64,000 nucleotides of DNA from Bryobacterales bacterium (GTDB taxonomy: Bacteria > Acidobacteriota > Terriglobia > Bryobacterales > Bryobacteraceae), in contig JADZAF010000231.1 in assembly GCA_020852755.1 (NCBI GenBank), forward strand, positions 1-64,000, written 5' to 3'. The translations under genes were made by a program, and so were the position numbers. Shown in pieces: positions 5,745-21,728 of this stretch (the stretch's first letter is position 1; every line of letters begins with the position of its first letter). The notes under the pieces are model-generated. The model did not search any database. It saw nothing but the letters and a program-made list of their open reading frames with translations, and was not told where the DNA came from.

Positions 5745-7094
5745 CTACCTCTTCACCGGCAGGTACGCCCCGCTCTGCGTTTCCAGCCCGCCGACGCTCA
5801 GCACTACGGGAACGTCGCCGTCCGGGACCGAGTCGGGAAGCCTGAGGTTGAACTGGTAGAAGCCCGGGGCCTCCGCCGAGAGTCCGGCATAGAGTATGTT
5901 CTCCCGTGCCAGGGTCGTGCCGCCGATCCGGATCGTGTAGGGATCGCGCAGCGGAGCGAGGTCCCAGGGAAACTCGCCCGGCTGGTAGACCGGCTCGGTG
6001 AAGCCGAAGCCCGTCCCGTAGAGCACCACTACGTCACCCGGCTTGGCGGGAACTCCGCTCGGGACCACCGAGGGATTAGCCACGATGGAGTAGTTGCTCG
6101 AGGCGTTCCGCGCCGCCAGGGCCCGGCCGTCGAAGGTGAAGAAGGCCGGCGAGTATTGCTGGATGTCGATCCGGAACGGCGCGCTGCGCTTCTCGTTGCG
6201 CCCGCCCGGGTCGCGGATCACCCGCACCTCCACGGGACCTCCGCCCAGCAGGAAGGGCGCCTGCGCGTTGATCTGGTTGTTCTGCACGTAGAACACCGGC
6301 GCGCGCTTGCCGTCGACCTCCACCGCCACGCAGGCCAGCTGGGTCGGGACCTTGCCCTCCACCAGGTCGGTCTTCCGGGCGCCGTACTTGTCGCTGGAAT
6401 CCGCGAACGAACTGCCGTACAGGGAAATGATGGTGTTGGAGGAGATCAAGGCCTTGCCGGCGGCCGCGTCGCCCACCCCGCTGACGCTGGGTGTGCCCGA
6501 ATCCTCGCAGGGCTCGGCCTCGACTCTGCGCATGGCGGTGTAGATGTGGTCTCCGGCGTTGGTGCCGTCATTGTTGGCGGCATTGCCGGCCGCGTAGAAG
6601 ACCACGTCGCCGACATTGTTGGCCGGGGCCGTCCACTCGACCTCGAACTCCCGGCGGCCCGAAGTGCCCGGAGCCGTGGCCGCGGCCGAGTGGCTGGCGA
6701 ATTCCGGGGCGCCGCCGCACCCGTTCATGTCCCCAGCCGGCACGAAGCGGTTGTCCGGAGGGCAGCGCACCAGGGTGCCGGCATTGGCGGTGAAGGCTCC
6801 GGCCGGCTTGGTTTCATCGCTGGCCAGGCGGGCCGTCAACTGGAAACCCCAGCGCAGCGCGGCCGGATCCTCCACGATGACCCGGATGGTTTGCCGGCGC
6901 CCGGGATGATACCCGGAGGCGTTGATGGTCACCTTGCCCGGCCCTTCGTTGACGGCCATGCCGCGGTGGCAGGCGGTGCAGTTGAGCCCGCCGTCAACGG
7001 GGGCGCCGGTTCGCATGACGGGCGGGCCGGTGCTGCGGCCCAGCAGGACCGCGGGAATAGCCGCCCAGAGCAGCAACTGGAACGTTGTTCGCAT
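5745..7094 (-). CDS. secreted CxxCH protein with TIGR03437-type C-terminal domain (second of a tandem pair)
   Basis: The start at ATG 7094 is set by AAGGAGAT 7 bp upstream and by the signal peptide that follows (LLLWAAIPAVLLG). The 449-residue protein has a mono-haem motif CTACH near residue 35 within a region resembling the choice-of-anchor V domain (RTGAP...CTACH, then a Reelin-like beta domain with RWGFQLTAR). The C-terminal half has the landmarks of the TIGR03437 domain (LYGSSF, INAQAPF, VVLYGTGFGFTEP, QFNLRLPDSVPDGDVPV). It is probably exported and may carry one covalent haem, though a single CxxCH does not prove this. It is a diverged duplicate of the gene directly upstream, 5 bp away, and probably co-transcribed with it. 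Function unknown. Confidence 0.85.
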   Translation of the reverse strand: MRTTFQLLLWAAIPAVLLGRSTGPPVMRTGAPVDGGLNCTACHRGMAVNEGPGKVTINASGYHPGRRQTIRVIVEDPAALRWGFQLTARLASDETKPAGAFTANAGTLVRCPPDNRFVPAGDMNGCGGAPEFASHSAAATAPGTSGRREFEVEWTAPANNVGDVVFYAAGNAANNDGTNAGDHIYTAMRRVEAEPCEDSGTPSVSGVGDAAAGKALISSNTIISLYGSSFADSSDKYGARKTDLVEGKVPTQLACVAVEVDGKRAPVFYVQNNQINAQAPFLLGGGPVEVRVIRDPGGRNEKRSAPFRIDIQQYSPAFFTFDGRALAARNASSNYSIVANPSVVPSGVPAKPGDVVVLYGTGFGFTEPVYQPGEFPWDLAPLRDPYTIRIGGTTLARENILYAGLSAEAPGFYQFNLRLPDSVPDGDVPVVLSVGGLETQSGAYLPVKR

Positions 7095-7099
7095 GTGCG

Positions 7100-8434
7100 T
7101 TATCTCCTTACTGTGATCACGATGTTCTCCGGCGACCGCACGCCACCGACCTCGGCCACCACGGGCAGGTCCCCGTCCGGCGCCGACTCCGGAATCCGGA
7201 TGACGATCTGGTAGAGCCCGGCCGAGCCCTGCGTCAGAGCGCCGCCGAGAAACTCCGCCGTCTGCCCGCCGACCCGGATCACCGGCGCCTCGGCGAGCGT
7301 CGTCGCCTGGTCGACCACCTGCCCGGCGGGAATCGCGGGATTCGTCGGCCCGAAACCGGTGCCCCACAGGATGATGACCTCTCCCGGCTTGGCCGGCGTG
7401 GTGGTCACGCCCGGGAAGGTGTCGGCCTTGGCGCGCCAGTTGAAGTTCGCGTCGGTCGCCACCGCCTGGTTGCCCGGCCAGGGGAAGAAGCCCGGCGAGA
7501 AGCGCTGCAGGTTGCCCATCACGGCGTCGCTCTTCACCCCGTTGACAGTGACTTCCACCGGCACCGGGCCGGTGCTGTCGTCCGAGGGAGCCTGCACGTT
7601 GATCTGCCCCGGAGAGATGTAGTACACCGAGGCCGGTTTCCCGTTGATGGTCACGCTGACTCCGTCCAACGAGGTCGGCAGTTTCCCGTTGACGATTTCA
7701 TCGGCTTGCCACACCCGGGTATTGCTTCCAAAATTGGACCCCTTGATGGTGACCCAGCTTCCGGCCGCGATGCCGGGCTGGAACGTGGCGCCGTTCACCA
7801 CCCCGCCTTCCGCGGAAATCGAGGGCTTCTGGCTTGCGGCCTGCGGAGCAAGCGTGTAGCTGCGTGTGTAGATGCGGTCGCCGCTGTTGAAATTGTTGCC
7901 ATTGGCGGCGTTGCCCGCCACGTAGATCACGATGTTTCCCACGTCGGTGGAAGGTGGAGTCCAATCGAACTCGAAGGCGGCCGACTGGCGTGTTCCGCTG
8001 CGGGTTCCGGCCTGGGTGTGCTCGATGTACTGAAGCGGAGTGGCGGCCGAGCAGGTTTGCTGATTCAGGCCCGAGTCCGCGCAGATCACCTGGCTGTTCG
8101 CATCCGCCGGAGTGAATGACCCGGCCTGCGAGGCGGCGTCCGCCGCCCGGCGGGCGGTAAGTTGAAAGCCCCAGCGCACCTGGTCGGGGTCCGAAACCAC
8201 CACGCGCAGCCGCTGAGTGGCGCCCGGGGTGTAGTTTTCACCGCCGGGAAACTCCACCCGCACGCTGCCGGGCCCCGAATTCGCCGTGCCGGCATGGCAG
8301 GCGGTGCAGGTCCCTTTTTCACCCGGCGCCCCGGTATGGCCCGGCTCGGGCCCGGAGGCAAAGGCGTAAACCAGAAACGGCAGCGCCGCCGCAATGGCGA
8401 CACTCTTGGCGTAGAAAACGTAAGTTCTTTTCAT
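7100..8434 (-). CDS. secreted CxxCH protein with TIGR03437-type C-terminal domain (first of a tandem pair)
   Basis: ATG 8434 is preferred over 8458 because a clean signal peptide follows (AKSVAIAAALPFLVYAFA). The 444-residue protein has HTGAPGEKGTCTACH near residue 40, the pattern of choice-of-anchor V domains, then RWGFQLTARRAAD and a beta-rich segment ending in DRIYTRSYTL. From about residue 195 the TIGR03437 features appear: VVNGATFQPGIAAGSWV, INVQAPS, ILWGTGFGPTNP and LYQIVIRIPESAPDGDLPV. Such C-terminal domains are a hallmark of Solibacter-like Acidobacteria and probably serve in surface display. The CTACH motif could bind haem c. It leads a two-gene unit with a paralogue 5 bp downstream. 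Confidence 0.86.
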   Translation of the reverse strand: MKRTYVFYAKSVAIAAALPFLVYAFASGPEPGHTGAPGEKGTCTACHAGTANSGPGSVRVEFPGGENYTPGATQRLRVVVSDPDQVRWGFQLTARRAADAASQAGSFTPADANSQVICADSGLNQQTCSAATPLQYIEHTQAGTRSGTRQSAAFEFDWTPPSTDVGNIVIYVAGNAANGNNFNSGDRIYTRSYTLAPQAASQKPSISAEGGVVNGATFQPGIAAGSWVTIKGSNFGSNTRVWQADEIVNGKLPTSLDGVSVTINGKPASVYYISPGQINVQAPSDDSTGPVPVEVTVNGVKSDAVMGNLQRFSPGFFPWPGNQAVATDANFNWRAKADTFPGVTTTPAKPGEVIILWGTGFGPTNPAIPAGQVVDQATTLAEAPVIRVGGQTAEFLGGALTQGSAGLYQIVIRIPESAPDGDLPVVAEVGGVRSPENIVITVRR

Positions 8435-8597
8435 AGGATTCCGCCCAGAACACCCCAAGTCTACGAAAAGAGGCGGCAGCAGCCGTGTTAATTCTGGCGT
8501 TACAAGTTGAAAATTCAGGGGTTGCGGGAGTCTTTCGGGCCCCCGGCGGAGGCTGGATCCGGCGGCGGGACGCGGGACGCGCCGTGCGGGCGCCCGC

Positions 8598-8603: not shown

Positions 8604-8663
8604 AAAGGATTACGCGTCAGACTTTTTTCGATCTGCCCGCGTCTTTCTGCAAGGAGCCGGAAT

Positions 8664-9200
8664 TTGATCTTTCGGGCCGTCGAGGATGCCGACCTCATCC
8701 GGAAGGCACGCCGGGGAGATGTGGAGGGCTACAACTTCCTCATCTCCCGTTGGGAAAAACGTGTCTTCAACTATCTGCTGCGCATGGTCGGCAACCGCGA
8801 GGACGCCCTCGACCTGACCCAGGACGTGTTCCTGAAAGCCTATCAGAACCTGAGAAAACTCGAGGATCCGGCGCGCTTTCCGGCCTGGCTTTTCCGGATT
8901 GCGCACAATGAGGCCTATTCTATGTTTCGCAAAAACCGGCCGGAAACCGAGGAGCTGCCCCTGAACCGGGCGGCCGAGGTCTTTCCCCTCGAATTGTCCC
9001 TCGCCGTCAACGGAGCGCTCGGGCGCCTTTCCCCCGAACAGCGCGAGGCGGTGGTTCTGAAGATCTACCAGGGCTTCAAGTTCGAGGAGATGGCCGAGAT
9101 CCTCTCCTGCCCGGTGTCCACCGTGAAGTCCCGGGTGTACACCGCGCTGGACGTGATGAAAGCCGAACTGGCTCCGGTGAAAGAGCGGGGTGAGAAATGA
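8664..9200 (+). CDS. RNA polymerase sigma factor, ECF family
   Basis: The TTG start is supported by AAGGAG 8-13 bp upstream. The 178-residue protein has sigma region 2 (about 20-85: RVFNYLLRMVGNREDALDLTQDVFLKAY, given here in two parts in the family as RVFNYLLRMVG and DALDLTQDVF) and region 4 (about 125-170: LSPEQREAVVLK and CPVSTVKSRVYTAL). It would direct RNA polymerase to a small regulon in response to a released anti-sigma factor. The next gene overlaps by 4 bp and encodes a membrane anti-sigma factor. The two sit at the head of the type II secretion operon with no gap, which suggests that secretion genes are among the targets. Confidence 0.93.
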   Translation: MIFRAVEDADLIRKARRGDVEGYNFLISRWEKRVFNYLLRMVGNREDALDLTQDVFLKAYQNLRKLEDPARFPAWLFRIAHNEAYSMFRKNRPETEELPLNRAAEVFPLELSLAVNGALGRLSPEQREAVVLKIYQGFKFEEMAEILSCPVSTVKSRVYTALDVMKAELAPVKERGEK

Positions 9201-9757
9201 CGTGTTCACCGCATGACCTGCGGGATTACCTTCTGAATGAGCTGAAGGCCGGCGAGCGCGAGGAGGTGGAACGCCACCTGAAGACGTGCCTGAGCTGCGG
9301 GGTGGAACTGGAACGGTTGCAGGCCACCCGGTCGGCCTTGCTGGCGTTTCCCGAGGAAGAGATCCCGCGCCGTATCGCCTTCGTCTCCGACAAGATCTTC
9401 GAACCGCCGGTGTGGCGCGGCTGGCTGCGCTTTGCGTGGCTGCAGGTGGCGATCGCCGCCGGCATGGTGCTGGCCATCCTGTACCGGCCGCTGCCGCCCC
9501 CGGCGCCCGTTACCGTTCAGAACGCGTTCGACCCGGCCCAACTGCGGGCCGAGATCGTCCAGGAGGTCGCCCGGGCGGTGGCGGCCAGCGAGGAGCGCCA
9601 GGCCAAACGCACGGCGCAGCTGCTGGCCGCGGCCGAAAAGCGCTACGCCTTCCAGCGCCAGGCCGACCGCCTGGCGGTCGAGGAGTACGTCGACGTCCTC
9701 AAGAAGCGGCTGAACGTCACCTATATGGCCCTGGCCGGACGCGAGGTGCGGCAATGA
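9197..9757 (+). CDS. membrane-anchored anti-sigma factor with zinc-finger (ZAS) domain
   Basis: The 186-residue protein starts with an anti-sigma zinc-finger domain: His6 or nearby plus HLKTCLSC (residues 31-38), the H-x3-C-x2-C pattern that binds zinc and clamps ECF sigma factors. A single transmembrane helix follows at about 79-95 (LQVAIAAGMVLAILY). The outer part is a charged helical segment (EIVQEVARAVAASEERQAKR) that may be a coiled coil, the likely signal-sensing region. Its ATGA overlap with the sigma gene makes it the cognate partner. Release could be by proteolysis or by oxidation of the zinc site. Confidence 0.88.
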   Translation: MTCSPHDLRDYLLNELKAGEREEVERHLKTCLSCGVELERLQATRSALLAFPEEEIPRRIAFVSDKIFEPPVWRGWLRFAWLQVAIAAGMVLAILYRPLPPPAPVTVQNAFDPAQLRAEIVQEVARAVAASEERQAKRTAQLLAAAEKRYAFQRQADRLAVEEYVDVLKKRLNVTYMALAGREVRQ

Positions 9758-10278
9758 GACGGCTGCTGCCGGCCGTGGCCGCGATGGCGGCCCTGCTGCA
9801 CGCCGGCGCCATCAAGCGCAGCGTCTTCATCGACCTGGAGCACAAATTCGACGACCGCATCGAGAGCGTCACCCGCGACGACCCCTTCTGGCTCATGGTG
9901 AACACCAGCGGCGTATACCTGGAAGGCTACGGCGCCGTCTTCACGGCCCAGGTCAACCTGGTTTCCACCCCTACCGTCAGCCCCTTCCGCCAGACCATCC
10001 CCAAGGAAGACGTCGTCAAAGTGCATGCCAGGAAGCTCCAACGCCTGCCGGTGCTCAAGCAGCACATGCGGGAAAGCCTGGTGGGCATGGCGGCGACGCT
10101 GGACGATGTGCCGGCCAACGAGCAGATCGCCCTGGCCGTCTCGCTCTTCTATTTCGGCTGGGAGGATACCTCGGGGCTGCCCAGCCAGGTGCTGATGCAG
10201 GGCGAGCGCCGCAAGCTGATCGATCTGCAGGCGGGCCGCGCCACCCCGGAGGCCGTCCTGAAGGTGCGGGAGTTCTGA
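9754..10278 (+). CDS. small secreted protein of unknown function, secretion operon
   Basis: The 174-residue protein overlaps its neighbours on both sides (ATGA with the anti-sigma gene, TGATG with gspE), so it is surely part of the operon. An N-terminal signal peptide (LLPAVAAMAALLHAGA) points to export. The rest is a mixed alpha/beta sequence with VYLEGYGAVFTAQVNLV and a helical C-terminal half. No family is recognised. Its place between anti-sigma and gspE suggests a role in sensing the envelope state or in secretion, which is inference from position only. Confidence 0.75.
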   Translation: MRRLLPAVAAMAALLHAGAIKRSVFIDLEHKFDDRIESVTRDDPFWLMVNTSGVYLEGYGAVFTAQVNLVSTPTVSPFRQTIPKEDVVKVHARKLQRLPVLKQHMRESLVGMAATLDDVPANEQIALAVSLFYFGWEDTSGLPSQVLMQGERRKLIDLQAGRATPEAVLKVREF

Positions 10279-11912
10279 TGCGCCTGGGCGAAATGTTGAT
10301 CGAGCGCCGGCAGATCCAGCCGGAGGATCTCGATCGCGCCCTGGAGCTGCAGAAGGAGCGCGGCGATAAGATCGGCAAAATCCTGGTGGACCTGGGGTTC
10401 ATCGCCATGCGCGACGTGCTGGCCGCGCTGTCCCAGCAGCTCTCCATCCCGCTCCTGGCCCTGGATTCCCCGCCGCCCGCGGCCCCGGAGATCGACGGCC
10501 TTGCGCCCGCCTTCATGCGCCAGTGCCGCTTCATTCCGGCCGCCCTGGAGGACTCCACCCTCATTGTGGCCATGGCCGACCCGCTGGACTTCGAGACCAT
10601 CTCGGCGCTGCGCGGCTTTACCGGCCTGAAGATCAAGACCGCACTGGCCGCCGACCAGGAGATCCTGGACGCACTCAACAAGTACTACGGCGAGGCGCAG
10701 CAGGCGGCCGAATCCGATCTGGAGGCGGGGGCGGGCGGCGAGGACCTCGAGCAACTGCGGGACATGGCCAGCGAGGCCCCGGTCATCCGCCTGGTCAACA
10801 CCATGATCGCCCAGGCCGTGGAGAAGCGGGCCAGCGACATCCACATCGAGCCCTTCGAGCGCGAGTTCCGCGTCCGCTACCGGGTGGACGGCGTGCTCTT
10901 CAACCAGGAACCGCCGCCCCGGGAAATGAAAGCCGCCATCATCTCGCGGGTCAAGCTCATGGCCAAGCTGAACATCGCCGAGCGGCGCCTGCCGCAGGAC
11001 GGTCGCATCAAGATCAAGACCCTGGGCCGCGAGGTGGACCTGCGTGTCTCCACGCTGCCCACCCTTTACGGCGAAAGCGTGGTAATGCGCCTGCTGGACC
11101 GCTCCCAGGAAGAGTTGTACGACCTGAAGCGGCTGGGCTTCGACGAGCACATGCTGGCCCGCATGGAGCACTTCACCTCGCTGCCCCACGGCATTTTCCT
11201 GGTCACCGGACCCACGGGCAGCGGCAAGTCCACTACCCTGTACTCGGCGCTCAAGCGAATCAATATCCCGGACAAGAAGATCATCACCATCGAGGACCCC
11301 GTCGAGTACCAGATGGACGGCATCAACCAGATCCACGTCAATCCGCAGATCGGGCTGACCTTCGCTTCCGGCCTGCGCCACATCGTGCGCCAGGATCCGG
11401 ACGTGATCATGGTGGGCGAGATCCGCGACCGCGAGACCGCCGATATCGCCATCCGGGCCGCGCTTACCGGCCACTTCGTGTACTCGACCCTGCACACCAA
11501 CGACGCGCCCAGCGCCATCACCCGCCTGGCCGATATGGGGGTGGAAAACTACCTGCTCACTTCCTCGCTGGTGGGCGTTCTGGCGCAGCGGCTGGTGCGC
11601 GTCATCTGCCGGCATTGCCGGGCGCCGGCGGGCAGGCGCATGGCGCCGGACGGCGAGCCGGTCGATTGCTACCGCGGGGACGGCTGCGAGCGCTGCTCGG
11701 GCACCGGCTATTCCGGCCGGATCGGCATCTTCGAGCTGATGGAGATGAACGAGGAGCAGCGCACCCTGATCATGTCCGGTGCGGACGCCTCGCAAGTCAC
11801 GCTGGCCGCGCGGCGCTCCGGCATGCGCACGCTGCGCGAAGACGGCTGGATGAAGGTCCGGAAGGGCATCACCACCGCCGAAGAGGTCATGCGGGTCACC
11901 CAGGAATTCTGA
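10278..11912 (+). CDS. gspE: type II secretion system ATPase GspE
   Basis: The 544-residue cytoplasmic ATPase drives pseudopilus assembly. An N-terminal MshEN-type domain (LGEMLIERRQIQPEDLDRAL) precedes the ATPase core. Walker A is GPTGSGKSTT at about 311-320, the Walker B region is PDVIMVGEIRDRETAD, and the His box is FVYSTLHTNDA. A tetracysteine zinc module (CRHC near 443, CERCSGTGY near 470), typical of GspE/PilB, is present. It starts with TGATG overlap to the upstream gene and ends with the same overlap to gspF. It could also be called PilB-like, but the gspF-to-gspD gene order supports the secretion assignment. Confidence 0.95.
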   Translation: MRLGEMLIERRQIQPEDLDRALELQKERGDKIGKILVDLGFIAMRDVLAALSQQLSIPLLALDSPPPAAPEIDGLAPAFMRQCRFIPAALEDSTLIVAMADPLDFETISALRGFTGLKIKTALAADQEILDALNKYYGEAQQAAESDLEAGAGGEDLEQLRDMASEAPVIRLVNTMIAQAVEKRASDIHIEPFEREFRVRYRVDGVLFNQEPPPREMKAAIISRVKLMAKLNIAERRLPQDGRIKIKTLGREVDLRVSTLPTLYGESVVMRLLDRSQEELYDLKRLGFDEHMLARMEHFTSLPHGIFLVTGPTGSGKSTTLYSALKRINIPDKKIITIEDPVEYQMDGINQIHVNPQIGLTFASGLRHIVRQDPDVIMVGEIRDRETADIAIRAALTGHFVYSTLHTNDAPSAITRLADMGVENYLLTSSLVGVLAQRLVRVICRHCRAPAGRRMAPDGEPVDCYRGDGCERCSGTGYSGRIGIFELMEMNEEQRTLIMSGADASQVTLAARRSGMRTLREDGWMKVRKGITTAEEVMRVTQEF

Positions 11913-13120
11913 TGGCCACCTACTTCTTCAAAGCCGTGGCCGCGGACGGCAAGCTGCGCAGCGGCAGTTTCACGGCCGACAACGACCGGAGCGTGGCCCG
12001 CGAACTGCGCCGCCAGGGACTGACTCCGGTCTACGTCGGCTTGGAGCAGAAGAAGGGGTTTGAGCTGCGCCTGCCCGCTTTTCGCATGGGCAAGCGCCGC
12101 GACGTCCTGTTTTTTACCCAGGAACTTTCCACCCTGCTGAACGCCGGCGTGCCGGTGGACCGCGCGCTTTCGATCACCAGCGAGCTGAGCGAGCGGCCGG
12201 TCTTCCGCGCGGTGGTGCAGGACGTCTTGCGGATTCTGAAGGCCGGCCGCTCGCTGGCCGACTCCCTGGCCCAGCACCCGCAATACTTCGGCGAGTTGTA
12301 CGTGAACATGGTGCGGGCGGGGGAAGCCGGGGGCAGCCTAGCCGGCGTTTTCGAGCGGCTGGCGGAATTCGAGCGCTCCCGGGACGAGCTGCGCGGCTAC
12401 ATCATCTCCTCCATGATCTACCCGGCGCTGCTGGTATTGGTGGGCCTGGGCTCGGTGCTGCTGCTGATGAATTTCGTGGTGCCGCGCTTCGCCGCCGTCT
12501 TCCAGGAGTCGCGCATGCAGATCCCGCTGCCCACCAAAATCATGCTGGAGACCAGCCGCATCGTGCGCGCCTGGTGGTGGATTGCGGCGCTGGCCGGCGC
12601 CGCGGTCTTCGCGGCCTTGCGGTTCTACATCTCCACCCGGGCGGGCCGTTTGTGGTGGGACGGGCTGCGCCTGCGACTGCCCCTGCTGGGAGACGCGCTC
12701 CTGAAGGCCGAGACGGCGCGTTTCGCCCGCGCCATGGCGACCCTGGTGGCGAACACCGTGCCGCTGGTGCAGTCCATCGGCATCGCCGGCGCCATCCTGA
12801 ACAATCGCAAGATCGCCGGGTCGCTCGAAACCGTGGCCCAGGGAGTCAAGCGGGGCGAAGGCATTGCCGCTCCGGTTCGAAAGACCGGCGTCTTCCCGCC
12901 CCTGGCGGCGCACCTGTTGACGGTGGGCGAGGAAACCGGGCGGCTGGATCAGATGTTCGCCCAGATGGCCGACATCTACGAGGCCGACACCCGCGCGGCC
13001 ATCAAGCGCTTCACCTCTTTGTTCGAGCCCCTGATCATTCTCACAATGGGTCTGCTGGTGGGCGCCCTGGTGCTCAGCATGCTCCTGGCCATCACCAGCA
13101 TCAACGAAGTGACGGTGTAG
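11912..13120 (+). CDS. gspF: type II secretion system inner membrane platform protein GspF
   Basis: The 402-residue protein starts at the ATG that overlaps the gspE stop. It has two repeated T2SSF domains: one around 65-190 (FFTQELSTLLNAGVPVDRAL and GGSLAGVFERLAEF) and one around 270-395 (FARAMATLVANTVPLVQSI and GEETGRLDQMFAQMA). Membrane helices lie after each domain (ISSMIYPALLVLVGLGSV and PLIILTMGLLVGALVLSML). It forms the inner membrane base to which GspE docks. Length is standard for the family. Confidence 0.95.
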   Translation: MATYFFKAVAADGKLRSGSFTADNDRSVARELRRQGLTPVYVGLEQKKGFELRLPAFRMGKRRDVLFFTQELSTLLNAGVPVDRALSITSELSERPVFRAVVQDVLRILKAGRSLADSLAQHPQYFGELYVNMVRAGEAGGSLAGVFERLAEFERSRDELRGYIISSMIYPALLVLVGLGSVLLLMNFVVPRFAAVFQESRMQIPLPTKIMLETSRIVRAWWWIAALAGAAVFAALRFYISTRAGRLWWDGLRLRLPLLGDALLKAETARFARAMATLVANTVPLVQSIGIAGAILNNRKIAGSLETVAQGVKRGEGIAAPVRKTGVFPPLAAHLLTVGEETGRLDQMFAQMADIYEADTRAAIKRFTSLFEPLIILTMGLLVGALVLSMLLAITSINEVTV

Positions 13121-13122
13121 AG

Positions 13123-13557
13123 ATGAACGAACGCAAACGCAGAAGACAGGCCGGCGTGACCCTGATCGAAATGCTGGTCGTGGTCACCATCATCGCCCTG
13201 TTCGCGGCCCTGGTGGGCCCCAGCATGTTCCGGCAGAGCGACAAGGCGCGCGTCACCGCGGCGCGGGTCCAGATCAACAATTTCCGCGGGGCGCTGGGCC
13301 AATACAAACTGGACACGGGCGTCTTTCCGACCACCGAGCAGGGACTCGCGGCGCTGCGCGCCCGGCCCGAAAACGTGAACCAGTGGCAGGGACCGTACCT
13401 GGGGCAGGACGTGCCCGCCGACCCCTGGGGCCGGCCGTACGTCTACCGCTACCCGGGCGAGCACGGCGACGAGCCCGATATCGTCAGCTACGGGGCCGAC
13501 GGGCAGGCCGGCGGCGAGGGCATCAACGCCGACATCGTGAGCTGGAAGTCGCAGTGA
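13123..13557 (+). CDS. gspG: major pseudopilin GspG
   Basis: The 144-residue protein has a type III (prepilin) signal: basic leader ending in G, then VTLIEMLVVVTIIALF, with cleavage predicted between Gly11 and Val12 and Glu5 of the mature form present. The C-terminal part has the GspG pattern, including DTGVFPTTEQGLAALR, WQGPYL, DPWGRPYVYRYPG and DIVSYGADG with acidic residues for calcium. It builds the pseudopilus that pushes substrates through the secretin. The prepilin peptidase is not in the window. The start lies 2 bp after the gspF stop. Confidence 0.95.
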   Translation: MNERKRRRQAGVTLIEMLVVVTIIALFAALVGPSMFRQSDKARVTAARVQINNFRGALGQYKLDTGVFPTTEQGLAALRARPENVNQWQGPYLGQDVPADPWGRPYVYRYPGEHGDEPDIVSYGADGQAGGEGINADIVSWKSQ

Positions 13558-14039
13558 GCAGGCTCCATCGCCAGCCCGGCCGCCGCGGCGTCACCCTGGT
13601 CGAGATGATGGTGGTGGTGGGCATCGTCAGCCTGCTGGCCGGAATCTCCTTTCCGGCCATCTCCTCCGGTATCGACACCCTGCGCCTCTCCTCGGCCTGC
13701 GATGCCGTCGCCACCTTCCTGAACGGGGCCTTAAACCGCGCCGAGCGGCGGCAGCAGGCGGTGGAGATCTCAGTCCTGCCTTCCGAGAACCGCATGTGGA
13801 TCGAGTCCACCGAGCCCGGCTTCCGGCGGCAGCTGGAATTGCCCGAAGGCGTGCGCATCGCGGCCGTGCTTCCCGCGCTGCCCGTGGAAATCCAGGGACC
13901 GCGCCGCTTCATCGTGCTGCCGGGAGGGGTGGCGCCGCGCCTGGGCGTGGAGTTGCGGAACCGCCGCGGCGTTCGGCGCACCGTGCAGGTGGACCCCATC
14001 ACCGGAGTCCCCGAAATCCGCTCGCCGGAGACGGAATGA
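13554..14039 (+). CDS. gspH: minor pseudopilin GspH
   Basis: A GTG start overlaps the gspG stop by 4 bp, giving 161 residues. The prepilin signal is RRG / VTLVEMMVVVGIVSLLAG, with cleavage after Gly12 and the mature Glu5 present. The rest matches the GspH layout: a helix (LRLSSACDAVATFLNGALNR split around Ala-Cys) and a beta-rich C-terminal part (VEISVLPSENRMWIE, RRFIVLPGGVAPRLGVEL). The place between gspG and gspI fits. The C-terminal domain is diverged, so the H assignment relies partly on order. Confidence 0.85.
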   Translation: MSRLHRQPGRRGVTLVEMMVVVGIVSLLAGISFPAISSGIDTLRLSSACDAVATFLNGALNRAERRQQAVEISVLPSENRMWIESTEPGFRRQLELPEGVRIAAVLPALPVEIQGPRRFIVLPGGVAPRLGVELRNRRGVRRTVQVDPITGVPEIRSPETE

Positions 14040-14437
14040 ACCGGCGCGGCTTCACCCTCCTCGAGATCCTGGTGGCCTCCACCATCATGGGGCTGGCCGT
14101 GGTCGGCATGCTTTCCGGCATCTCCGGTTCGCTCCGCAATGCCTCGCGGCTGACCGGTTACGACCGGGTCGTGCTGGTGGCCCGGGCGCGCATGGATGCC
14201 CTGCTGGTGGACCTCACGCTGCCCAGGTTCAGCGTCCTCCAAGGCGAATTCGAACCCGTGCTGCTGGGCGGCGCGAAGGGCGGCTGGCGCGCGCGGGTGA
14301 CGCCTTTCGAGACGCCGCCGGCCGGGGCCAGCCGGCCGCAGGCGCTGGAGCGGATCGAGCTGGAAGTGTGGTGGATGTCCGGCGAGGAGCGCCGCACCTT
14401 CACCCTGGAGGGCTTTCGGAGGGTGCGGTTTCCATGA
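14036..14437 (+). CDS. gspI: minor pseudopilin GspI
   Basis: The 133-residue protein begins at ATG overlapping the gspH stop. It has a very short leader (MNRRG) and the prepilin motif FTLLEILVASTIMGLAVVG with mature Glu5. The remainder (YDRVVLVARARMDALL, then a beta-rich domain with ERIELEVWWMSGEERRTF) fits the small GspI fold. GspI starts the GspI-J-K tip complex of the pseudopilus. Confidence 0.88.
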   Translation: MNRRGFTLLEILVASTIMGLAVVGMLSGISGSLRNASRLTGYDRVVLVARARMDALLVDLTLPRFSVLQGEFEPVLLGGAKGGWRARVTPFETPPAGASRPQALERIELEVWWMSGEERRTFTLEGFRRVRFP

Positions 14438-15171
14438 GGCGCGGGCGCCAGTCCGGTATCACCCTCATGGAGGTGCTGATCGCCGTCTCTCTGCTCAGCC
14501 TGGTGGCCGTGGGAATGCTCACCGCCATGCGCATCGGGCTGAGCGCGCTGGACCGGACCAACCGGAGACTGATATCGAACCGCCGGGTGACCGGCGCGCA
14601 GCGGGTGCTGGAACAGCAGATTGCCGGGTTCATGCCGGTCATCGCCCTGATGCAGCCCGGGCCCGGAGCGCCCGGAGACAAAGCACCGTTCTTTCACGGC
14701 GAGCCGCAGTCCATGCGCTTTGTTTCGAGTTATTCGCTGCAGGAGGCCTCGCGCGGGTACCCGCGCATCCTGGAGTTCCAGGTGATCCCGCGCGACGACG
14801 GCGAGGGCGTGCGGCTGGTGGTGAACGAGCACATCTACACCGGGCCCGCCAGCGCCGGGCGGTTCTGCATGGGCCGGCGTCTCGACCCGCTCTCGAATAC
14901 GCCGGTGGCCCTGTTTCGGCCCATCGCCGTCGGCCCCGGCTCCTTCGTCCTGGCCGACCGGCTGGCCTTCTGCCGCTTCTACTACCTGACTCCGCCCGCC
15001 GGACCTGCGCCCAACACCTGGCAGCCGGCCTGGACCCGGGCCGTGTGGCCGCGGGCCGTGCGGATCGACATGGCCCCGCGGGAGGACGAAAACACCAACC
15101 TGCGCCCTGTGGCGGTCACGGCTCCCCTGCGCGTGGACCGCTTCCCGATTTTCGACTATGTCGACTACTGA
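14434..15171 (+). CDS. gspJ: minor pseudopilin GspJ
   Basis: The 245-residue protein starts at ATG overlapping the gspI stop. The leader MRRGRQSG is followed by ITLMEVLIAVSLLSLVAVG, a prepilin signal with mature Glu5. The C-terminal domain is the largest of the four small pseudopilins, as expected for GspJ (LEQQIAGFMPVIA, FVSSYSLQEASRGYPR, FCRFYYLTPP). It overlaps gspK by 14 bp. It is predicted to sit at the pseudopilus tip with GspI and GspK. Confidence 0.87.
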   Translation: MRRGRQSGITLMEVLIAVSLLSLVAVGMLTAMRIGLSALDRTNRRLISNRRVTGAQRVLEQQIAGFMPVIALMQPGPGAPGDKAPFFHGEPQSMRFVSSYSLQEASRGYPRILEFQVIPRDDGEGVRLVVNEHIYTGPASAGRFCMGRRLDPLSNTPVALFRPIAVGPGSFVLADRLAFCRFYYLTPPAGPAPNTWQPAWTRAVWPRAVRIDMAPREDENTNLRPVAVTAPLRVDRFPIFDYVDY

Positions 15172-16201
15172 TTGCGGCGCGCGTTCTCAAGGCGCCCTGC
15201 CGGCTCCCGTACCCCCGCCGCTTCCGCGCGGGCGCTCCCGGGGCGGAGGCGCCCTCCTGGCCGTGCTGTGGCTGGCGGCCGCGCTCTCGGCGATCGCGCT
15301 CTCGCTGGCCACCACCATCCAGGGCGAAACGGAACGCACTTCCACCGCCGTGGACGGCCTGAAAGCCTACTACCTGGCCACCGGCGCCCTGGACCGCGCC
15401 ATCCTCTACGTTTCCTGGGGTCCGCTGGCGCCCCTGCCGGGCGGCTTCTCCCGTTATTACTCACCCGCCATGCCGGTTCTCTCGATGGAATTCCCGACCG
15501 GCATCGCCCAGGTGGAGGTGATTCCGGAAGCCTCCCGCATGGACATCAACAAGACCTCGCCGGAGGACCTGTTCCGCCTGCTGCTGAACCTGGGGGCGCC
15601 CCCGGAGCAGGCCCGCGAAGTAGCCCTGGCCATCGCCGACTGGCGCACCCCCTCCGGGGGGCTGACCGGCTTCGATCAGTTTTATCAGACCCTGACTCCG
15701 TCTTTCCGCGCCCGCCACGCGTCTTTTGAAGAGATCGAGGAATTACTGCTGGTCAAGGGAATGACGCCGGAACTCTATTACGGGACGTATGAACGCGATG
15801 CCGGGGGGCGCCTGGTCCCCCGCGGGGGCCTGCGGGATTGCGTCTCGGTCTTCGGCGCCACCGACCGCTTTGACGTCAACACCGCCCACCCGGCCGTCCT
15901 GGCCACCGCCGGCCTGACCCCGCAAGCCGTGCAGGCCATCGTGGAAAGGCGCCGCGCCACCCCCTTCCGCTCGGCGGACGAAGTATCGGCCCTGTTCCGC
16001 GCCGGCGGCCCCGGCTTCGACCGGCTGCGCGTGGGCGGCAACTCCATCTTCACGCTGCGCGCCTCGGCCCGCGTCCGGCTGCCCAACGGAAACCTCTCCG
16101 ATTTGCGGAGGACGGTCTCGGCCATGGTGAAGTTCATGCCCGCCGAGTACGAGATCCCGTACCACATCCTGCGCTGGTACGACCAGGATTGGAGCCGCTG
16201 A
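15158..16201 (+). CDS. gspK: minor pseudopilin GspK
   Basis: The 347-residue protein has a long N-terminal leader before a hydrophobic helix (ALLAVLWLAAALSAIALSLA) and, unlike the other pseudopilins, lacks Glu5, as is known for GspK. Helical K-type features follow: MDINKTSPEDLFRLLLNLG, ADWRTPSG, FEEIEELLLVKGMTPELYYG and a helix-hairpin-helix-like DVNTAHPAVLATAGLTPQAV. GspK caps the pseudopilus tip. It ends in TGATG overlap with the next gene. Confidence 0.92.
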   Translation: MSTTDCGARSQGALPAPVPPPLPRGRSRGGGALLAVLWLAAALSAIALSLATTIQGETERTSTAVDGLKAYYLATGALDRAILYVSWGPLAPLPGGFSRYYSPAMPVLSMEFPTGIAQVEVIPEASRMDINKTSPEDLFRLLLNLGAPPEQAREVALAIADWRTPSGGLTGFDQFYQTLTPSFRARHASFEEIEELLLVKGMTPELYYGTYERDAGGRLVPRGGLRDCVSVFGATDRFDVNTAHPAVLATAGLTPQAVQAIVERRRATPFRSADEVSALFRAGGPGFDRLRVGGNSIFTLRASARVRLPNGNLSDLRRTVSAMVKFMPAEYEIPYHILRWYDQDWSR

Positions 16202-17562
16202 TGTCCGCCGGCCAGCCCGCCGTCGCCGAACCACGGACCGCGGCCCGTGCGCGGAGCGCGTCCGGCCTCCGCAAGTGTCTGGCTTTCGGAACCGGTGTCG
16301 GCATCCGGTTGGGGAAAACGGATCTCGAAGCGTTGATCGTACGCGTGCGCCCGGGCGGAGCGAGCATACTTGCCGCGGCCTCGATCGAAGGCTTCCGCGA
16401 GCGCCCGGCCGCCGAATGGGGCGCCGAGTATTCCCGGTTTCTGACCCGGAACGGCGCCGGCCACCTGGCGGCCACCGTGCTGCTGCCGCGCCGCGAGGTG
16501 ATCGTGCGCCAGCTGTCTCTGCCCGGCGTGGCTCCCAAGGACATCCCCGCGGCCATCGGTTTTCAGATCGACACCCTGCATCCCTATGGGGAGGACGACG
16601 CGGCCTATGCCTGGACGCGGCTCGGCGACAGTGGCGCGGTGCTGCTCGGCATCGTGCGCCGCGGCCTGCTGGAGCGCTACCTGGAGATGTTCGCCGAAGC
16701 GGGCGTGGCCGTGGCCTCCCTCACCTTCTCGGCCGCCGTCCTGCACGCCGCTTCCCGGCTGTTGACGGTCCCGCCCGGGGAAGGCTTCCTGGCGGCCGGC
16801 GAGGAGCGCGAAGGGACGGTCGAGATCTACGGCGAAAGCCCGTCCCGCCTGGTGTTCTCGGCCGAGTTCGATGAAACGCCGGAGCGAGCGGCCGCGCTGG
16901 CCCGGGCCGAGCTTCGCCTGCCGGAGGACGCGGCGCCCGCCGCTTTCAATGAGTTTCTGCCCGCGCCGGCCGCCCGGCCGGAGGATTGCGATCTTTCCCG
17001 CAACGCACTGCCGTATGCAACGGCGTTAGCCGGGGCTTGTCCCCGGCTCGCGCCGGCGGCAAACCTGGTGCCGGAGGAGCGCCGCAGCGCCAGTTCGCGG
17101 GCGATGTTCATTCCCACGGCCATCCTGGCCGTGCTCCTGATTTTCACCGCGGCAGCCGCCCTGGGCTATTCGAAGATTCGCGACCGCCGCTACCTGGCCC
17201 GGCTGGAAGCCGGGATCGCGCAAATCGGCCCGCAGGCCCAGCGCGCCTCCAGTCTGGACTCGGAGATTGAAAGGACACGGGCCCGCGCGCGCCTGCTGGA
17301 CGATTTTCGCGCACGGTCCAAGGCCGACCTGGACGCCTTGAACGCCCTCACCCTGCTCCTGGCGCCGCCCATCTGGGCCAATTCCGTGGAACTGAGCCGC
17401 GACGGCATGCAGATCGGCGGCGAGGCCGAGCAGGCCGCCGCCCTGCTGCAATTGATCGACAGTTCCCCGTTCTTCCAGAACTCGCAGTTCACGGTCCCGA
17501 TCGCGCGGGGACAGGGCGGCGAGATCTTCCGCATTCGGGCGGACCGGGAGGGACGCCGGTGA
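16201..17562 (+). CDS. gspL: GspL-type assembly protein (PilM-like plus PilN-like parts)
   Basis: The ATG at 16201 overlaps the gspK stop (TGATG) and is preferred over a TTG 12 bp earlier, giving 453 residues. The N-terminal two-thirds look like the actin-like domain of PilM/GspL (TGVGIRLGKTDLEALIV, LPRREVIVRQLSLPGV, PKDIPAAIGFQIDTLHPY). One transmembrane helix follows at about 300-320 (FIPTAILAVLLIFTAAAAL), then a coiled coil and a small PilN-like periplasmic domain. GspL links the GspE ATPase to the membrane complex. Its sequence is diverged; the call rests on architecture and operon position. Confidence 0.82.
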   Translation: MSAGQPAVAEPRTAARARSASGLRKCLAFGTGVGIRLGKTDLEALIVRVRPGGASILAAASIEGFRERPAAEWGAEYSRFLTRNGAGHLAATVLLPRREVIVRQLSLPGVAPKDIPAAIGFQIDTLHPYGEDDAAYAWTRLGDSGAVLLGIVRRGLLERYLEMFAEAGVAVASLTFSAAVLHAASRLLTVPPGEGFLAAGEEREGTVEIYGESPSRLVFSAEFDETPERAAALARAELRLPEDAAPAAFNEFLPAPAARPEDCDLSRNALPYATALAGACPRLAPAANLVPEERRSASSRAMFIPTAILAVLLIFTAAAALGYSKIRDRRYLARLEAGIAQIGPQAQRASSLDSEIERTRARARLLDDFRARSKADLDALNALTLLLAPPIWANSVELSRDGMQIGGEAEQAAALLQLIDSSPFFQNSQFTVPIARGQGGEIFRIRADREGRR

Positions 17563-18149
17563 CGCTCAACAGCCGCGACCGCCGGGCGCTGATCCTGCTG
17601 GGGGCGGCTTTGCCTCTCATCCTCCTCCTGCGGGCTTTCATGGGGCGCGAAACCGCCTCGGCAGCCGCCGCTCCGGTCGAGGATATCCCGCGCGCGGAGA
17701 AGCGCCTGGAGCGCTTGCGGCAGCTGGCGGCGGGAGTGCCGGCGAAGGAGGCCGTGCTGAAGGCGGCCGCGGCCGAACTGGCCGGGCGGGAAAAAGGGAT
17801 TCTCAAGGCGGAAACGGCTGCCCAGGCCCAGGCCGAATTGCTGCAGGTCGTCCGGCGGGTGGCACAGCGCGAGGGCATCGACGTGCGGGGCGGCGAGTTC
17901 GGGCCGGTGCGCGCCCTGGGAGACGACTACGGCGAGGTGACGGTGGCGGTCACCTTCGAGTGCCAGATCGAAAGACTGGTCAATCTGCTGGCCTCGCTGA
18001 CGGCCGAGCCGCAACTTCTGGCCACCCACGAGATCCGCATCGCCTCGGCCAATGCCAAGGACAAGACCGTGGGGATCCGGCTGGCGCTGAGCGGCGTGGT
18101 GCCGCGCCAGCTGGTCCCGGCCAGGAAAGGAGTGGCGGCGCTGTTTTGA
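17559..18149 (+). CDS. gspM: GspM/PilO-like assembly protein
   Basis: A GTG start overlaps the gspL stop by 4 bp; 196 residues. One N-terminal membrane helix (ALILLGAALPLILLLRAFM) is followed by a coiled coil (EKRLERLRQLAAGVPAKEAVL) and a ferredoxin-like periplasmic domain (AQAELLQVVRRVAQREGID and VTVAVTFECQIERLVNLLASL), the layout of GspM (T2SSM_b) and PilO. It would pair with the GspL-like protein in the inner membrane. The sequence itself is weakly conserved. Confidence 0.8.
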   Translation: MTLNSRDRRALILLGAALPLILLLRAFMGRETASAAAAPVEDIPRAEKRLERLRQLAAGVPAKEAVLKAAAAELAGREKGILKAETAAQAQAELLQVVRRVAQREGIDVRGGEFGPVRALGDDYGEVTVAVTFECQIERLVNLLASLTAEPQLLATHEIRIASANAKDKTVGIRLALSGVVPRQLVPARKGVAALF

Positions 18150-18865
18150 AACGCAAGCTGCTTTTGCTGAACCTGGTGCTGGTGGCGCTGACGGCGCTGG
18201 CCGGCTGGCGGCTGCGCCAGCAGTACCTGGCCGCCCAGGCCAGAGAACAAGCGGTGTTGGGACGCAGGGTGCCGGCGCCGGCGGCGCCCCCGGCCGCGAA
18301 ATCCGCGCCGGCGCAGCCGCTGACCGCGGCGGGTTACATCGAGATCGCGCAGAAGATGCTGTTCTCCAAGGACCGCAACCCGACCGTCATCGTGGAAGCC
18401 GCTCCGCCGCCGCCCAAGCCCATGCCGCCCTTGCCCGGGTTGCACGGGGTGATGAATTTCCCCGACGGGCCGGTGGCCATGCTGAGTGAACAAGGCGCCG
18501 CCCGGCACCGCGGAGTGCGCATCGGCGAATCGATTGGAGAGTTCAAGCTGCTGGCCGTCAACGACAGCGAGATCACCTTCGAATGGGACGGCCAGACCAT
18601 AGTGAAGGACACACGGGAACTGCGGCAGAACAACGAGCCGCCCCCGGAGACCGCCGCTCGCACCCCCGCGCCGGCGTCCGCGCCCGCCCCTACCGCGCCG
18701 CCCGCCCCTCGCGGGCAGCCGGTTCCGGGCGTGAGCATTGGAGGCGGCATCAAGGCCTGCCAGCAGGGAGACACTTCGCCCCCGGGGACCGTCGCCCAAG
18801 GCATGCGTAAGGTGGTGACCGAGAGCCCCTTCGGCCAGGTCTGCCGTTGGGAGCCCGTGCAATAA
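18146..18865 (+). CDS. GspC-like linker protein with cysteine-containing tail
   Basis: A TTG start overlaps the gspM stop; 239 residues. An N-terminal membrane helix (LLLLNLVLVALTALAGW) is followed by a Pro/Ala-rich stretch and a compact beta domain (LPGLHGVMNFPDGPVAML, VRIGESIGEFKLLAVNDSEI), like the homology region of GspC or PilP that contacts the secretin. After a second Pro/Ala linker comes an unusual tail with two cysteines (KACQQGDTSPPGT and FGQVCRWEPVQ) that may form a disulfide. The position just before gspD supports a GspC role. The tail has no family I can name. Confidence 0.72.
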   Translation: MKRKLLLLNLVLVALTALAGWRLRQQYLAAQAREQAVLGRRVPAPAAPPAAKSAPAQPLTAAGYIEIAQKMLFSKDRNPTVIVEAAPPPPKPMPPLPGLHGVMNFPDGPVAMLSEQGAARHRGVRIGESIGEFKLLAVNDSEITFEWDGQTIVKDTRELRQNNEPPPETAARTPAPASAPAPTAPPAPRGQPVPGVSIGGGIKACQQGDTSPPGTVAQGMRKVVTESPFGQVCRWEPVQ

Positions 18866-18880: not shown

Positions 18881-19348
18881 ATGATGAGAAGCCTGAAGCT
18901 GTTACTGCCAGTCCTGCTGTGCGCCGCCTTGCCGGCGAGCGCCGAGAATGCCGCCCGAACCAAGGCGGCCAAGCCGAAACCAGCCCCCGCGGCTCAACTT
19001 CAGATCCCGAAGGGCGCCGTGCAGGTGGATGCGGCCACCTACCGCTTCACCGACGAGCAGGGCCGCAACTGGATCTACCGGCGGACCCCCTTTGGCGTTG
19101 CCCGCGCCGAGGAGCGCGCGCCCTCCGCCGAAGAAACCGCCCAGAAGGCCAAAATGATCGAGCTGACCAAGGCCGTCGAGCGCGGCGACGAGATTCACTT
19201 CGAACGGCCTGGACCGTTCGGCACCTATCGGTGGCAGCGCAAGAAGACTGACCTGAACGACATCGAGAAGGCAGCCTGGGAGCGCGACCGGACGAGCGCC
19301 GGGAAGAGCAATGCGAGCAGCTCCGCGGCCCGGGCGAGCCAGGAGTAG
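18881..19348 (+). CDS. small secreted protein of unknown function, secretion operon
   Basis: The 155-residue protein starts at ATG 18881 (a second ATG follows at once), with AGGAG about 7 bp upstream. The signal peptide is LKLLLPVLLCAALPASA. A Lys/Pro/Ala-rich stretch leads to a short domain (YRFTDEQGRNWIYRRTPFG), then a charged helical tail. No family is recognised. It lies between the GspC-like gene and gspD, 4 bp before the gspD start, so it may be an accessory or pilotin-like protein; it lacks a lipobox, so a classical lipoprotein pilotin is unlikely. Confidence 0.7.
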   Translation: MMRSLKLLLPVLLCAALPASAENAARTKAAKPKPAPAAQLQIPKGAVQVDAATYRFTDEQGRNWIYRRTPFGVARAEERAPSAEETAQKAKMIELTKAVERGDEIHFERPGPFGTYRWQRKKTDLNDIEKAAWERDRTSAGKSNASSSAARASQE

Positions 19349-19352
19349 AGGG

Positions 19353-21728
19353 ATGCTTTCCATCCGAGCCGGATTGACCAGTCTCTGCGTGGCGGCTCTG
19401 CTGGCGGCCCAGCCGCGCCCGCCGGTTCTCGTGCTGCCGCAGTCGCAGCAACCGGCCCCGGAGAAACCGGCGGCGCAGCCGCCCGCCGCGCCGCAACCGT
19501 CGCCCCAGCAACCGGGCGCGCCCAAGCTCCCGGCTCCGGTCAGAACCGCGACCGCCGAGCCCGCCCGGCCCGCCGCCACGCCCGAAGGCGGCTTCAACCT
19601 GAATAACGCCTCTCTGGTCGAGGTCATCGACATCCTGGCGCGCCGGCTCAAGATCAACTACATCCTCGACCCGCGCGTCAAGGGCGGCGTCACCATCAGC
19701 ACGTACGGAGAGATCAAGCCTACCGACGAGTGGCAGCTTCTGCAGACCATCCTGCGGATCAACGGCGCGGCCATCGTGGAGGTCGGCAGCCTCTACCGCA
19801 TCGTGCCGACAGCGGAAGTGGCGCGTCTTCCGATCACGCCCACGGTGAACGCCAAGGAACTCCCCAGAGGCGAAGAGATGATCCTCAACCTCGTCTTCCT
19901 GAAGTACGCGACGGTGAGCGACCTCGAGAAACTGCTGGAGCCTTTTCTGGGCGAAGGCGCCAAGATGGTCAGCTACGATCCGGCCAACCTGCTGCTGATC
20001 CTCGATAACTCGCGCAACATGCGCCGCACCATGGAGCTGATCGCCATGTTCGACAGCGACACCTTCGCGGGCCAGCGCGTGCGCCTGTTCGAGGTGGAGA
20101 ACGGCCGGCCCAGCGATATCGCCGACGAGCTGACCACGGTCTTCAAGGCCTTCGCGATGTCCGAAAAATCCGCCTCGGTCAAGTTCATGCCCATCGACCG
20201 CATCAACACCATCATCGCGGTGGCCCCCAATCCCGGCGCCTTCGACGAGGTCGAGAAGTGGATCAAGAAGCTGGACGTGGCCGTGAAGGCCCCGGCCGGC
20301 GCGGTGAGCAACTACGCCTACCGGCTGAAATACGGGCGGGCGGAAACCCTGGCGATGGCCATTATGCAGCTCTACATGGGATTCATGGGCTATCCCGTCT
20401 ACGGCATGGGCATGGGCATGATGGGCGGCTACGGCATGGGCGGTTACGGCGGCTATGGCATGGGCGGCGGCTATGGCATGGGCGGCTACGGCATGGGCGG
20501 GGGCTACGGGATGGGCGGGGGGTACGGCGTGCCTCCGGTGGGCGCCATGGCCGGCTACGGCATGGGAGGCATGGGAGGCATGGGCGGCTATGGCATGGGC
20601 GGCTACGGCATGATGGGCATGAGCCCCTACGGCATGGGCGGTTATTACGGCTATTCGCCGCCCGCCGGACCGCTGGCCAGCTCGGCCTCCTCCACCGCGG
20701 CAGCCGCCAAGGCTTCCGGGCAAGGCACGCCCGGCGCCGCCGGCTCAGCGGGGACGGATCTCACAGGCTCGTACCTGGGAGCGGGCGCGGCCGGGGGCGC
20801 CCTGCCAAGGATCCCGCACGTGATTCCGAATCCGTTCGACAACACGCTGCTGGTCCAGGCCACTCCGCAGGAATGGGAGCAGATTCGCGACCTGCTGCGA
20901 CAGCTCGACGTTCCCCCGCGCCAGGTCCTCATCGAGGCCAAGATCTACGAAGTATCCATGACCGGTGCTTTCGCCAGCGGCGTGGCGGCCGCGCTGCAGA
21001 AGCAGAACAACAACCTCCAGTCCGGCAGAGGCATTCTGCCCCGCATCGTGGAGGCCAGCGGGTCCGCCAGCGGCGTGGCCCTGACCGGGTCCATCCTGGT
21101 CGGGCAGGCGCGCGAACTGCTGGCCACCATCACCGCCTCGGAGGAGTCCCGGAAATCGAGGATCATCTCCGCGCCCAGCGTCATTGCCACCGACAGCATC
21201 GCGGCATCCATCAACGTCGGCGTCGAGGTTCCCACCCTGAGTTCCACCGCTGCCAGCAACGTGCAGACGGGCGGCAACACGGCGTTCTACAACACGGTAC
21301 AGAACCGCAACAGCGGCGTGACGTTGAGCCTGCTGGCGCGGGTCAATTCCAGCGGGGTGGTCACCATGGAGATCGACCAGGAGGTGAGCGCCCCCCAGGC
21401 GGCTCCCGCCAACGTTCCCACCATCGAGAACTCCCCGTCGTTCTCCAAGCGCAACGTCAAGACCGTGGTCACGGTTCAGGACGGGGACACCATCGCCATC
21501 GGCGGCATCATGCAGGAAACCAATACCCAGAGCTCGGCGGGGATACCCCTGCTGCAGCGCCTGCCGGGCATCGGGGCCGCATTCGGCAACCGCTCCTACA
21601 ACAAGGAACGCACGGAACTGATCGTATTCCTGACGCCCCGCGTCATCTACGACACCAACCAGATCGCCGACGCCACCGAGGAATTGAAGTCCAAGCTGCT
21701 GCGCGTGCAGAAGCTGATCAGGGAATAA
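19353..21728 (+). CDS. gspD: type II secretion secretin GspD with Gly-Tyr-Gly-Met repeat insert
   Basis: ATG 19353 is chosen because AGGAG (19341-19345) lies 7 bp before it and a signal peptide follows; 791 residues. Domains: a Pro/Gln/Ala-rich leader region, an N0 domain (about 83-155, FNLNNASLVEVIDILARRL), N1 (about 165-235), N2 (about 240-315) and N3 (from 320), then the secretin barrel with NRNSGVTLSLLARV, VQDGDTIAIGGIMQ and RTELIVFLTPRVI. The N3 domain is split after LAMAIMQLYMGFMGYP by about 90 residues of GYGMGG-type repeats (DNA 20386-20660) and a Ser/Ala/Gly linker before N3 resumes at HVIPNPFDNTLLV. It forms the outer membrane pore of the system. No S-domain for a pilotin is evident at the C-terminus. 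Confidence 0.95.
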   Translation: MLSIRAGLTSLCVAALLAAQPRPPVLVLPQSQQPAPEKPAAQPPAAPQPSPQQPGAPKLPAPVRTATAEPARPAATPEGGFNLNNASLVEVIDILARRLKINYILDPRVKGGVTISTYGEIKPTDEWQLLQTILRINGAAIVEVGSLYRIVPTAEVARLPITPTVNAKELPRGEEMILNLVFLKYATVSDLEKLLEPFLGEGAKMVSYDPANLLLILDNSRNMRRTMELIAMFDSDTFAGQRVRLFEVENGRPSDIADELTTVFKAFAMSEKSASVKFMPIDRINTIIAVAPNPGAFDEVEKWIKKLDVAVKAPAGAVSNYAYRLKYGRAETLAMAIMQLYMGFMGYPVYGMGMGMMGGYGMGGYGGYGMGGGYGMGGYGMGGGYGMGGGYGVPPVGAMAGYGMGGMGGMGGYGMGGYGMMGMSPYGMGGYYGYSPPAGPLASSASSTAAAAKASGQGTPGAAGSAGTDLTGSYLGAGAAGGALPRIPHVIPNPFDNTLLVQATPQEWEQIRDLLRQLDVPPRQVLIEAKIYEVSMTGAFASGVAAALQKQNNNLQSGRGILPRIVEASGSASGVALTGSILVGQARELLATITASEESRKSRIISAPSVIATDSIAASINVGVEVPTLSSTAASNVQTGGNTAFYNTVQNRNSGVTLSLLARVNSSGVVTMEIDQEVSAPQAAPANVPTIENSPSFSKRNVKTVVTVQDGDTIAIGGIMQETNTQSSAGIPLLQRLPGIGAAFGNRSYNKERTELIVFLTPRVIYDTNQIADATEELKSKLLRVQKLIRE
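20386..20660 (+). repeat. tandem GGCTAYGGCATGGGC-type repeat coding for GYGMGG units
   Basis: Within gspD, about 275 bp are made of imperfect 12-18-bp units reading GGCTACGGCATGGGC or GGCTATGGCATGGGC. They encode alternating GYGM and GG blocks, with only Gly, Tyr, Met and a few Pro/Ser/Val residues. The units vary at synonymous positions, so the repeat is kept at protein level rather than being a fresh DNA expansion. Confidence 0.9.

Follow-up and report, generated by a model that had tools for sequence, protein, structure and literature searches.

A putative ECF-sigma switch at the head of a type II secretion operon in Acidobacteriota

The window (the whole stretch of DNA analysed, 64,000 nucleotides) carries genes for a sigma factor and an anti-sigma factor immediately in front of genes for a type II secretion system (T2SS), raising the question of whether this sigma factor governs secretion or only adjoins the secretion genes. 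To our knowledge, the control of T2SS building in bacteria is poorly known except in a few pathogens, while Acidobacteriota are a phylum abundant in soil. The features of the gene run are as follows:

8619–8644, plus strand: putative ECF-type promoter of the operon, with -35 GACTTTTTT (8620–8628) and -10 CGTC (8640–8643)
8664–9200, plus strand: gene for an ECF sigma factor, TTG start
9197–9757, plus strand: gene for a ZAS-type membrane anti-sigma factor (C3, H27-x3-C31-x2-C34; one TM helix; 70-residue periplasmic helix)
9754–10278, plus strand: gene for protein X, 174 aa, exported, without known family, the proposed periplasmic partner of the anti-sigma factor
10278–11912, plus strand: gspE, the T2SS ATPase (TIGR02533, 639.9 bits, cut-off 630.25)
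11912–13120, plus strand: gspF (369.3 bits, under the TIGR02120 cut-off of 424)
13123–13557, plus strand: gspG, major pseudopilin
13557–15171, plus strand: minor pseudopilins gspH/I/J, several overlapping genes with prepilin-like N-termini, named from position
15158–16201, plus strand: gspK (T2SSK match)
15699–15724, plus strand: putative second ECF-type promoter, within the gspK coding sequence, CGTCTTTCCGCGCCCGCCACGCGTCT
16189–17562, plus strand: gspL-like gene (PilN match; weak T2SSL)
17559–18149, plus strand: gspM (T2SSM_b match)
18146–18865, plus strand: gene for a gspC/PilP-like inner-membrane protein, named from position alone, with no Pfam match
18881–19348, plus strand: gene for a 155-aa exported protein of unknown kind
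19353–21728 (open frame from 19311), plus strand: gspD secretin (TIGR02517, 413 bits, cut-off 351)

The gene run and its conservation

A preliminary description, made from the sequence alone, had sigma, anti-sigma, X, and gspE following each other with overlapping codons, and the coordinates, the domains, and the junctions (ATGA, ATGA, and TGATG, with overlaps of 1–4 bases) indeed bear this out. Such junctions make it probable that the four head genes are translationally coupled; the sigma/anti-sigma pair, which had been called fused, is so only figuratively, as the two genes are separate. The secretion genes belong to a T2SS, with GspE, GspG, and GspD exceeding the curated cut-offs and gspF, gspK, and gspM lying in the same operon. 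From gspF the run continues through gspD to 21728, so that sigma, anti-sigma, X, and gspE head a full gsp operon. The 155-aa exported protein encoded before gspD (18881–19348) has no family match and occurs mainly in the order to which the window belongs. On the minus strand, divergent from the sigma operon, a tandem pair of similar large exported proteins is encoded at 5745–8458; they bear a TACH-type CxxCH motif and have related C-terminal halves.

The sigma factor (178 aa) consists of regions 2 and 4 only (Pfam sigma70 r2, 1.3e-18, and r4_2, 1.6e-12, both above cut-off), lacking regions 1.1 and 3 as ECF factors do, and in structure comparison it matches SigE/SigW/SigH structures. Its TTG start is preceded by AAGGAG. 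This rare start codon and the bases next to it (TTGATCTT, 8664–8671) are retained in 61 of 122 upstream regions, and the retained TTG might perhaps limit sigma translation. In the anti-sigma factor (zf-HC2, 4.6e-6, above cut-off), the H-x3-C-x2-C zinc motif precedes a single TM helix at about 71–95, the layout of ZAS proteins; H27, C31, and C34 are invariant in 30 sequences, and the motif is found in 54 of 67 wider relatives.

The preliminary description had staked its reading on the conservation of this order in Acidobacteria, and the order proved constant: sigma, anti-sigma, X, and gspE lie in this order on one strand wherever the full set was detected, at 162 loci (from overlapping samples, counted as loci and not as independent events). 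They span several classes of Acidobacteriota, and an arrangement kept so uniformly in order and strand is not due to chance. By sample, the complete order is seen at 66 of the first 69 loci (no anti-sigma was detected at L085 and L099, where a gap of fitting size is present, and L081 stops after X), in 69 of 73 named genome records (four truncated), and at 27 of 29 loci of the phylum sample (two truncated). The named genomes were scanned with a closer set of X sequences (A2), since a set of 56 diverse ones (A1) had no sufficiently conserved stretch.

Of 151 relatives, 105 have X; a profile search of 297 genomes drawn from the whole phylum found it in 39. Among 13 family members lacking X, T2SS-type GspE was sought and found absent from 10: six have only a PilB-like match of 46–48%, like G008, and at least four have nothing at the cut-off, although single absences weigh little here because some of the X-less genomes are only 74–90% complete. 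In the other three (G017, G040, G048), gsp genes are present, and the contigs bearing them end at gspE or gspF. Some T2SS operons of Acidobacteriota (G184, G342) are without the sigma/anti-sigma/X module.

Putative promoters of the sigma operon and of gsp genes

When two-part words were counted with no preset motif in distinct regions upstream of sigma, GACTT-N15-CGTC was found in 64 of 122, the shuffles giving at most 6. A matrix built from this word finds a site in 121 of the 122 regions, against 0 of 366 dinucleotide shuffles at the same threshold; as the matrix was trained on the same regions, the shuffles and the antisense strand are the fair controls, and over 40 operon loci it gives 62 sense matches and one antisense. 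The spacing is near-fixed, and the -35 G usually stands about 44 bp before the start codon. Sigma's own operon is thus preceded by a putative bipartite promoter with a CGTC-like -10, as is characteristic of ECF factors.

The strict promoter pattern occurs a single time in the 7.4-Mb genome of the window, and a stricter one gives 112 matches in 151 genomes, a good number of which lie at the sigma gene or in gspK, compared with 8 for its reversed control. A genome-wide regulon was sought in the window's genome and not found, one-mismatch matches numbering 51 against 94 for the reversed pattern. From their position and rarity, we infer that the site at 8620–8643 and those in gspK would be read by sigma. 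Covariation between sigma and promoter was also seen, but it follows phylogeny and was set aside as evidence of recognition.

The copy within gspK is characteristic of the window's order; one family (f5) has its second promoter after gspG instead. The GspK stretch in which this site falls, SFxxxHAS, is conserved, and the site might have been kept merely for the encoded protein sequence. The codons make that extremely improbable: the serine at position 182, which covers the -35, has the rare codon TCT in every one of 20 sequences (background 11%), whereas other well-conserved serine columns of GspK use TCT at 0–6%, the exception being a column within the -10 itself (43%). Where threonine takes this place, it is encoded by ACT in 3 of 3 cases (background 12%), and for the -10 alanine all 21 of 21 sequences have GCG (background 43%). 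The Ser-to-Thr change preserves the promoter letters, amounting to a switch between two -35 variants that are both also found at the main promoter. The codon pattern thus indicates that the promoter copy is maintained by codon choice.

Operon linkage by itself cannot tell control from proximity. The sigma/anti-sigma/X module could adjoin the gsp genes by inherited linkage, with sigma regulating its own gene and others and incidental read-through accounting for gsp transcription; in some genomes the promoter indeed also stands before a small number of exported-protein genes elsewhere. Gsp genes that have become detached from sigma bear directly on this reading. Three gspF–gspD clusters are separated from sigma, and in two of them (G026, G037) gspF is immediately preceded by a strong site (scores 28.9 and 31.0); in the third (G014, L274) nothing above threshold lies before gspF, the gspK site alone being present. 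A contig of G062 that carries gspL to gspD has a site before gspL (score 22.8). Together with the second copy maintained inside gspK or after gspG, and with the strict pattern matching only once in the window's genome, the copies owned by the clusters of G026, G037, and G062 make incidental read-through very improbable. The detached clusters with a promoter are the best evidence that sigma may act on gsp genes, beyond itself. The link between sigma and secretion drawn in the preliminary description thus stands at the level of sequence, in the gene order, the sigma promoter, the gspK copy, and most of the relocated clusters, and a dedicated ECF-sigma switch probably governs this T2SS.

Two kinds of exported proteins encoded elsewhere deserve mention. 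A protein family of about 175 aa (YLLPMSHGLDQYLANRLT...VVTDPKLADAVFTD, no Pfam match) is found at L276:9617-10159, L345, L351, L353, L357, and G000:C172:10472-10939, and its gene carries a sigma-type promoter in part of the taxonomic family and in roughly half of the genomes checked; the gene in the window's genome (G000:C172) has none, so such targets would be lineage-specific. A 255-aa exported protein of two genera (L349:1628-2392, L355:1657-2421) has the same promoter 37–39 bp upstream. The promoter-to-start distance for both kinds of genes is about 28–57 bp. Two genomes, G049 and G059 (84% and 82% complete), carry the promoter with no module detected.

Protein X

X has a hydrophobic, signal-like N-terminus of the exported type and no match in Pfam, NCBIfam, PDB sequences, PDB folds, or viral folds; its structure model is confident (pLDDT 93.6, pTM 0.86), the best PDB fold having an E of 0.21. 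Scattered Pfam matches of single X members were taken as chance. No STN or FecR match was found of the kind expected for cell-surface signalling of the VreA/FecA type.

Weak profile matches in other classes are X-like proteins of about 230–330 aa that have a C-terminal block and the motif surrounding GAVF in common with X. Their genes are preceded by a sigma/anti-sigma pair at 9 of 9 loci with an upstream region, and gspE follows at none of the seven among these with a downstream region. Such genes standing behind sigma/anti-sigma pairs without gspE suggest that X probably works with the sigma module and is no component of the secretion machine. X-like modules at L401–L410 have no T2SS nearby; the one at L405 adjoins a two-component/efflux-adaptor region, and at L408 the neighbouring genes encode an aminopeptidase and a large exported protein.

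X could instead serve the structure or assembly of the T2SS, as a secretin pilot or pseudopilus accessory would, since it directly precedes gspE at every T2SS locus of this kind, and X and the T2SS are absent together. This is unlikely: some T2SS operons do without X, X has no similarity to T2SS parts, and the proteins sharing its motif stand behind sigma/anti-sigma pairs with no adjoining gspE, in six genomes (G418, G332, G347, G386, G340, G165) alongside the T2SS kind. Judged by its gene neighbourhood, X is most likely a member of the sigma module and would contact the anti-sigma factor.

Within that module, a role as the sensor input is plausible. It is rather doubtful, if less so than a structural role, that X is a co-repressor stabilising the anti-sigma factor as RseB and MucB do, rather than a receptor of the inducing signal; the gene order is identical to rpoE-rseA-rseB, and the anti-sigma factor has a single TM helix followed by a periplasmic helix, but X matched neither the MucB_RseB domain nor its fold. 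The sensor and co-repressor roles are not mutually exclusive. More tentatively than its place in the sigma module, X may found a new exported-regulator family, with a fold not yet described, that works with sigma/anti-sigma pairs in Acidobacteriota; its T2SS version would monitor the secretion machine or its cargo in the periplasm and feed their state back to transcription, a possibility to which we give somewhat less than even weight.

The proposed switch and known systems

As reconstructed from gene order and promoter sites, the switch would work as follows. The zinc-binding cytoplasmic domain of the anti-sigma factor would keep sigma at the membrane until it is freed by a signal in the periplasm, which X would most likely read or relay. 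Freed sigma would transcribe its own operon (sigma, anti-sigma, X, and gspE onward) from 8620–8643 and boost gspL to gspD via the second promoter inside gspK. Since the anti-sigma factor and X would be co-produced with the secretion machine, the loop could shut off once the signal ends. An envelope signal would thus very probably turn on secretion in soil Acidobacteria.

One dedicated secretion switch appears to be used in Acidobacteriota, with a promoter precise enough for target prediction. It would offer a direct handle on the secretion of extracellular enzymes by these bacteria, and X would be an unknown regulator family for study. The gspK site, in turn, appears to be a clear example of a promoter within a coding sequence retained by codon choice. 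A literature search for this arrangement in Acidobacteriota found no report; an existing ECF group with such a neighbourhood is possible.

In the RpoE-RseA-RseB system (AlgU-MucA-MucB), a sigma factor, a single-TM anti-sigma factor, and a periplasmic protein are autoregulated and serve a broad envelope-stress regulon. The Acidobacteriota module has the same gene order, a single-TM anti-sigma factor, and a similar promoter layout, and would likewise be autoregulated, the resemblance of X to RseB/MucB being positional only; the module would, however, act chiefly on one T2SS operon rather than on a wide stress regulon. In Xanthomonas citri, EcfK-PknS controls a T6SS, the kinase acting on the ECF factor through phosphorylation (PMC8999054). 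There, too, an ECF factor encoded in the region of a secretion system acts on its expression, but control is by a kinase and over a T6SS, whereas a T2SS is concerned here.

The preliminary description knew of no characterised case, yet one exists: in Pseudomonas aeruginosa, vreAIR lies immediately upstream of the hxc T2SS genes, and VreI induces hxc (PMC2729926, PMC7035377). VreA, encoded by the first gene of vreAIR, has an STN signalling domain and is dispensable for VreI activation; vreAIR requires PhoB, and a vreA fusion is unresponsive to VreI (PMC2729926, PMC7035377). This PUMA3 (VreA-VreI-VreR) system with Hxc is the closest characterised case, sharing an ECF sigma factor, a membrane anti-sigma factor, and a small exported protein directly upstream of T2SS genes. 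The logic is similar and the parts differ: the Acidobacteriota anti-sigma factor is of the ZAS type and not FecR-like, X has neither an STN domain nor a known fold, the sigma gene has an ECF-type site in front of it, and the operon includes gspE.
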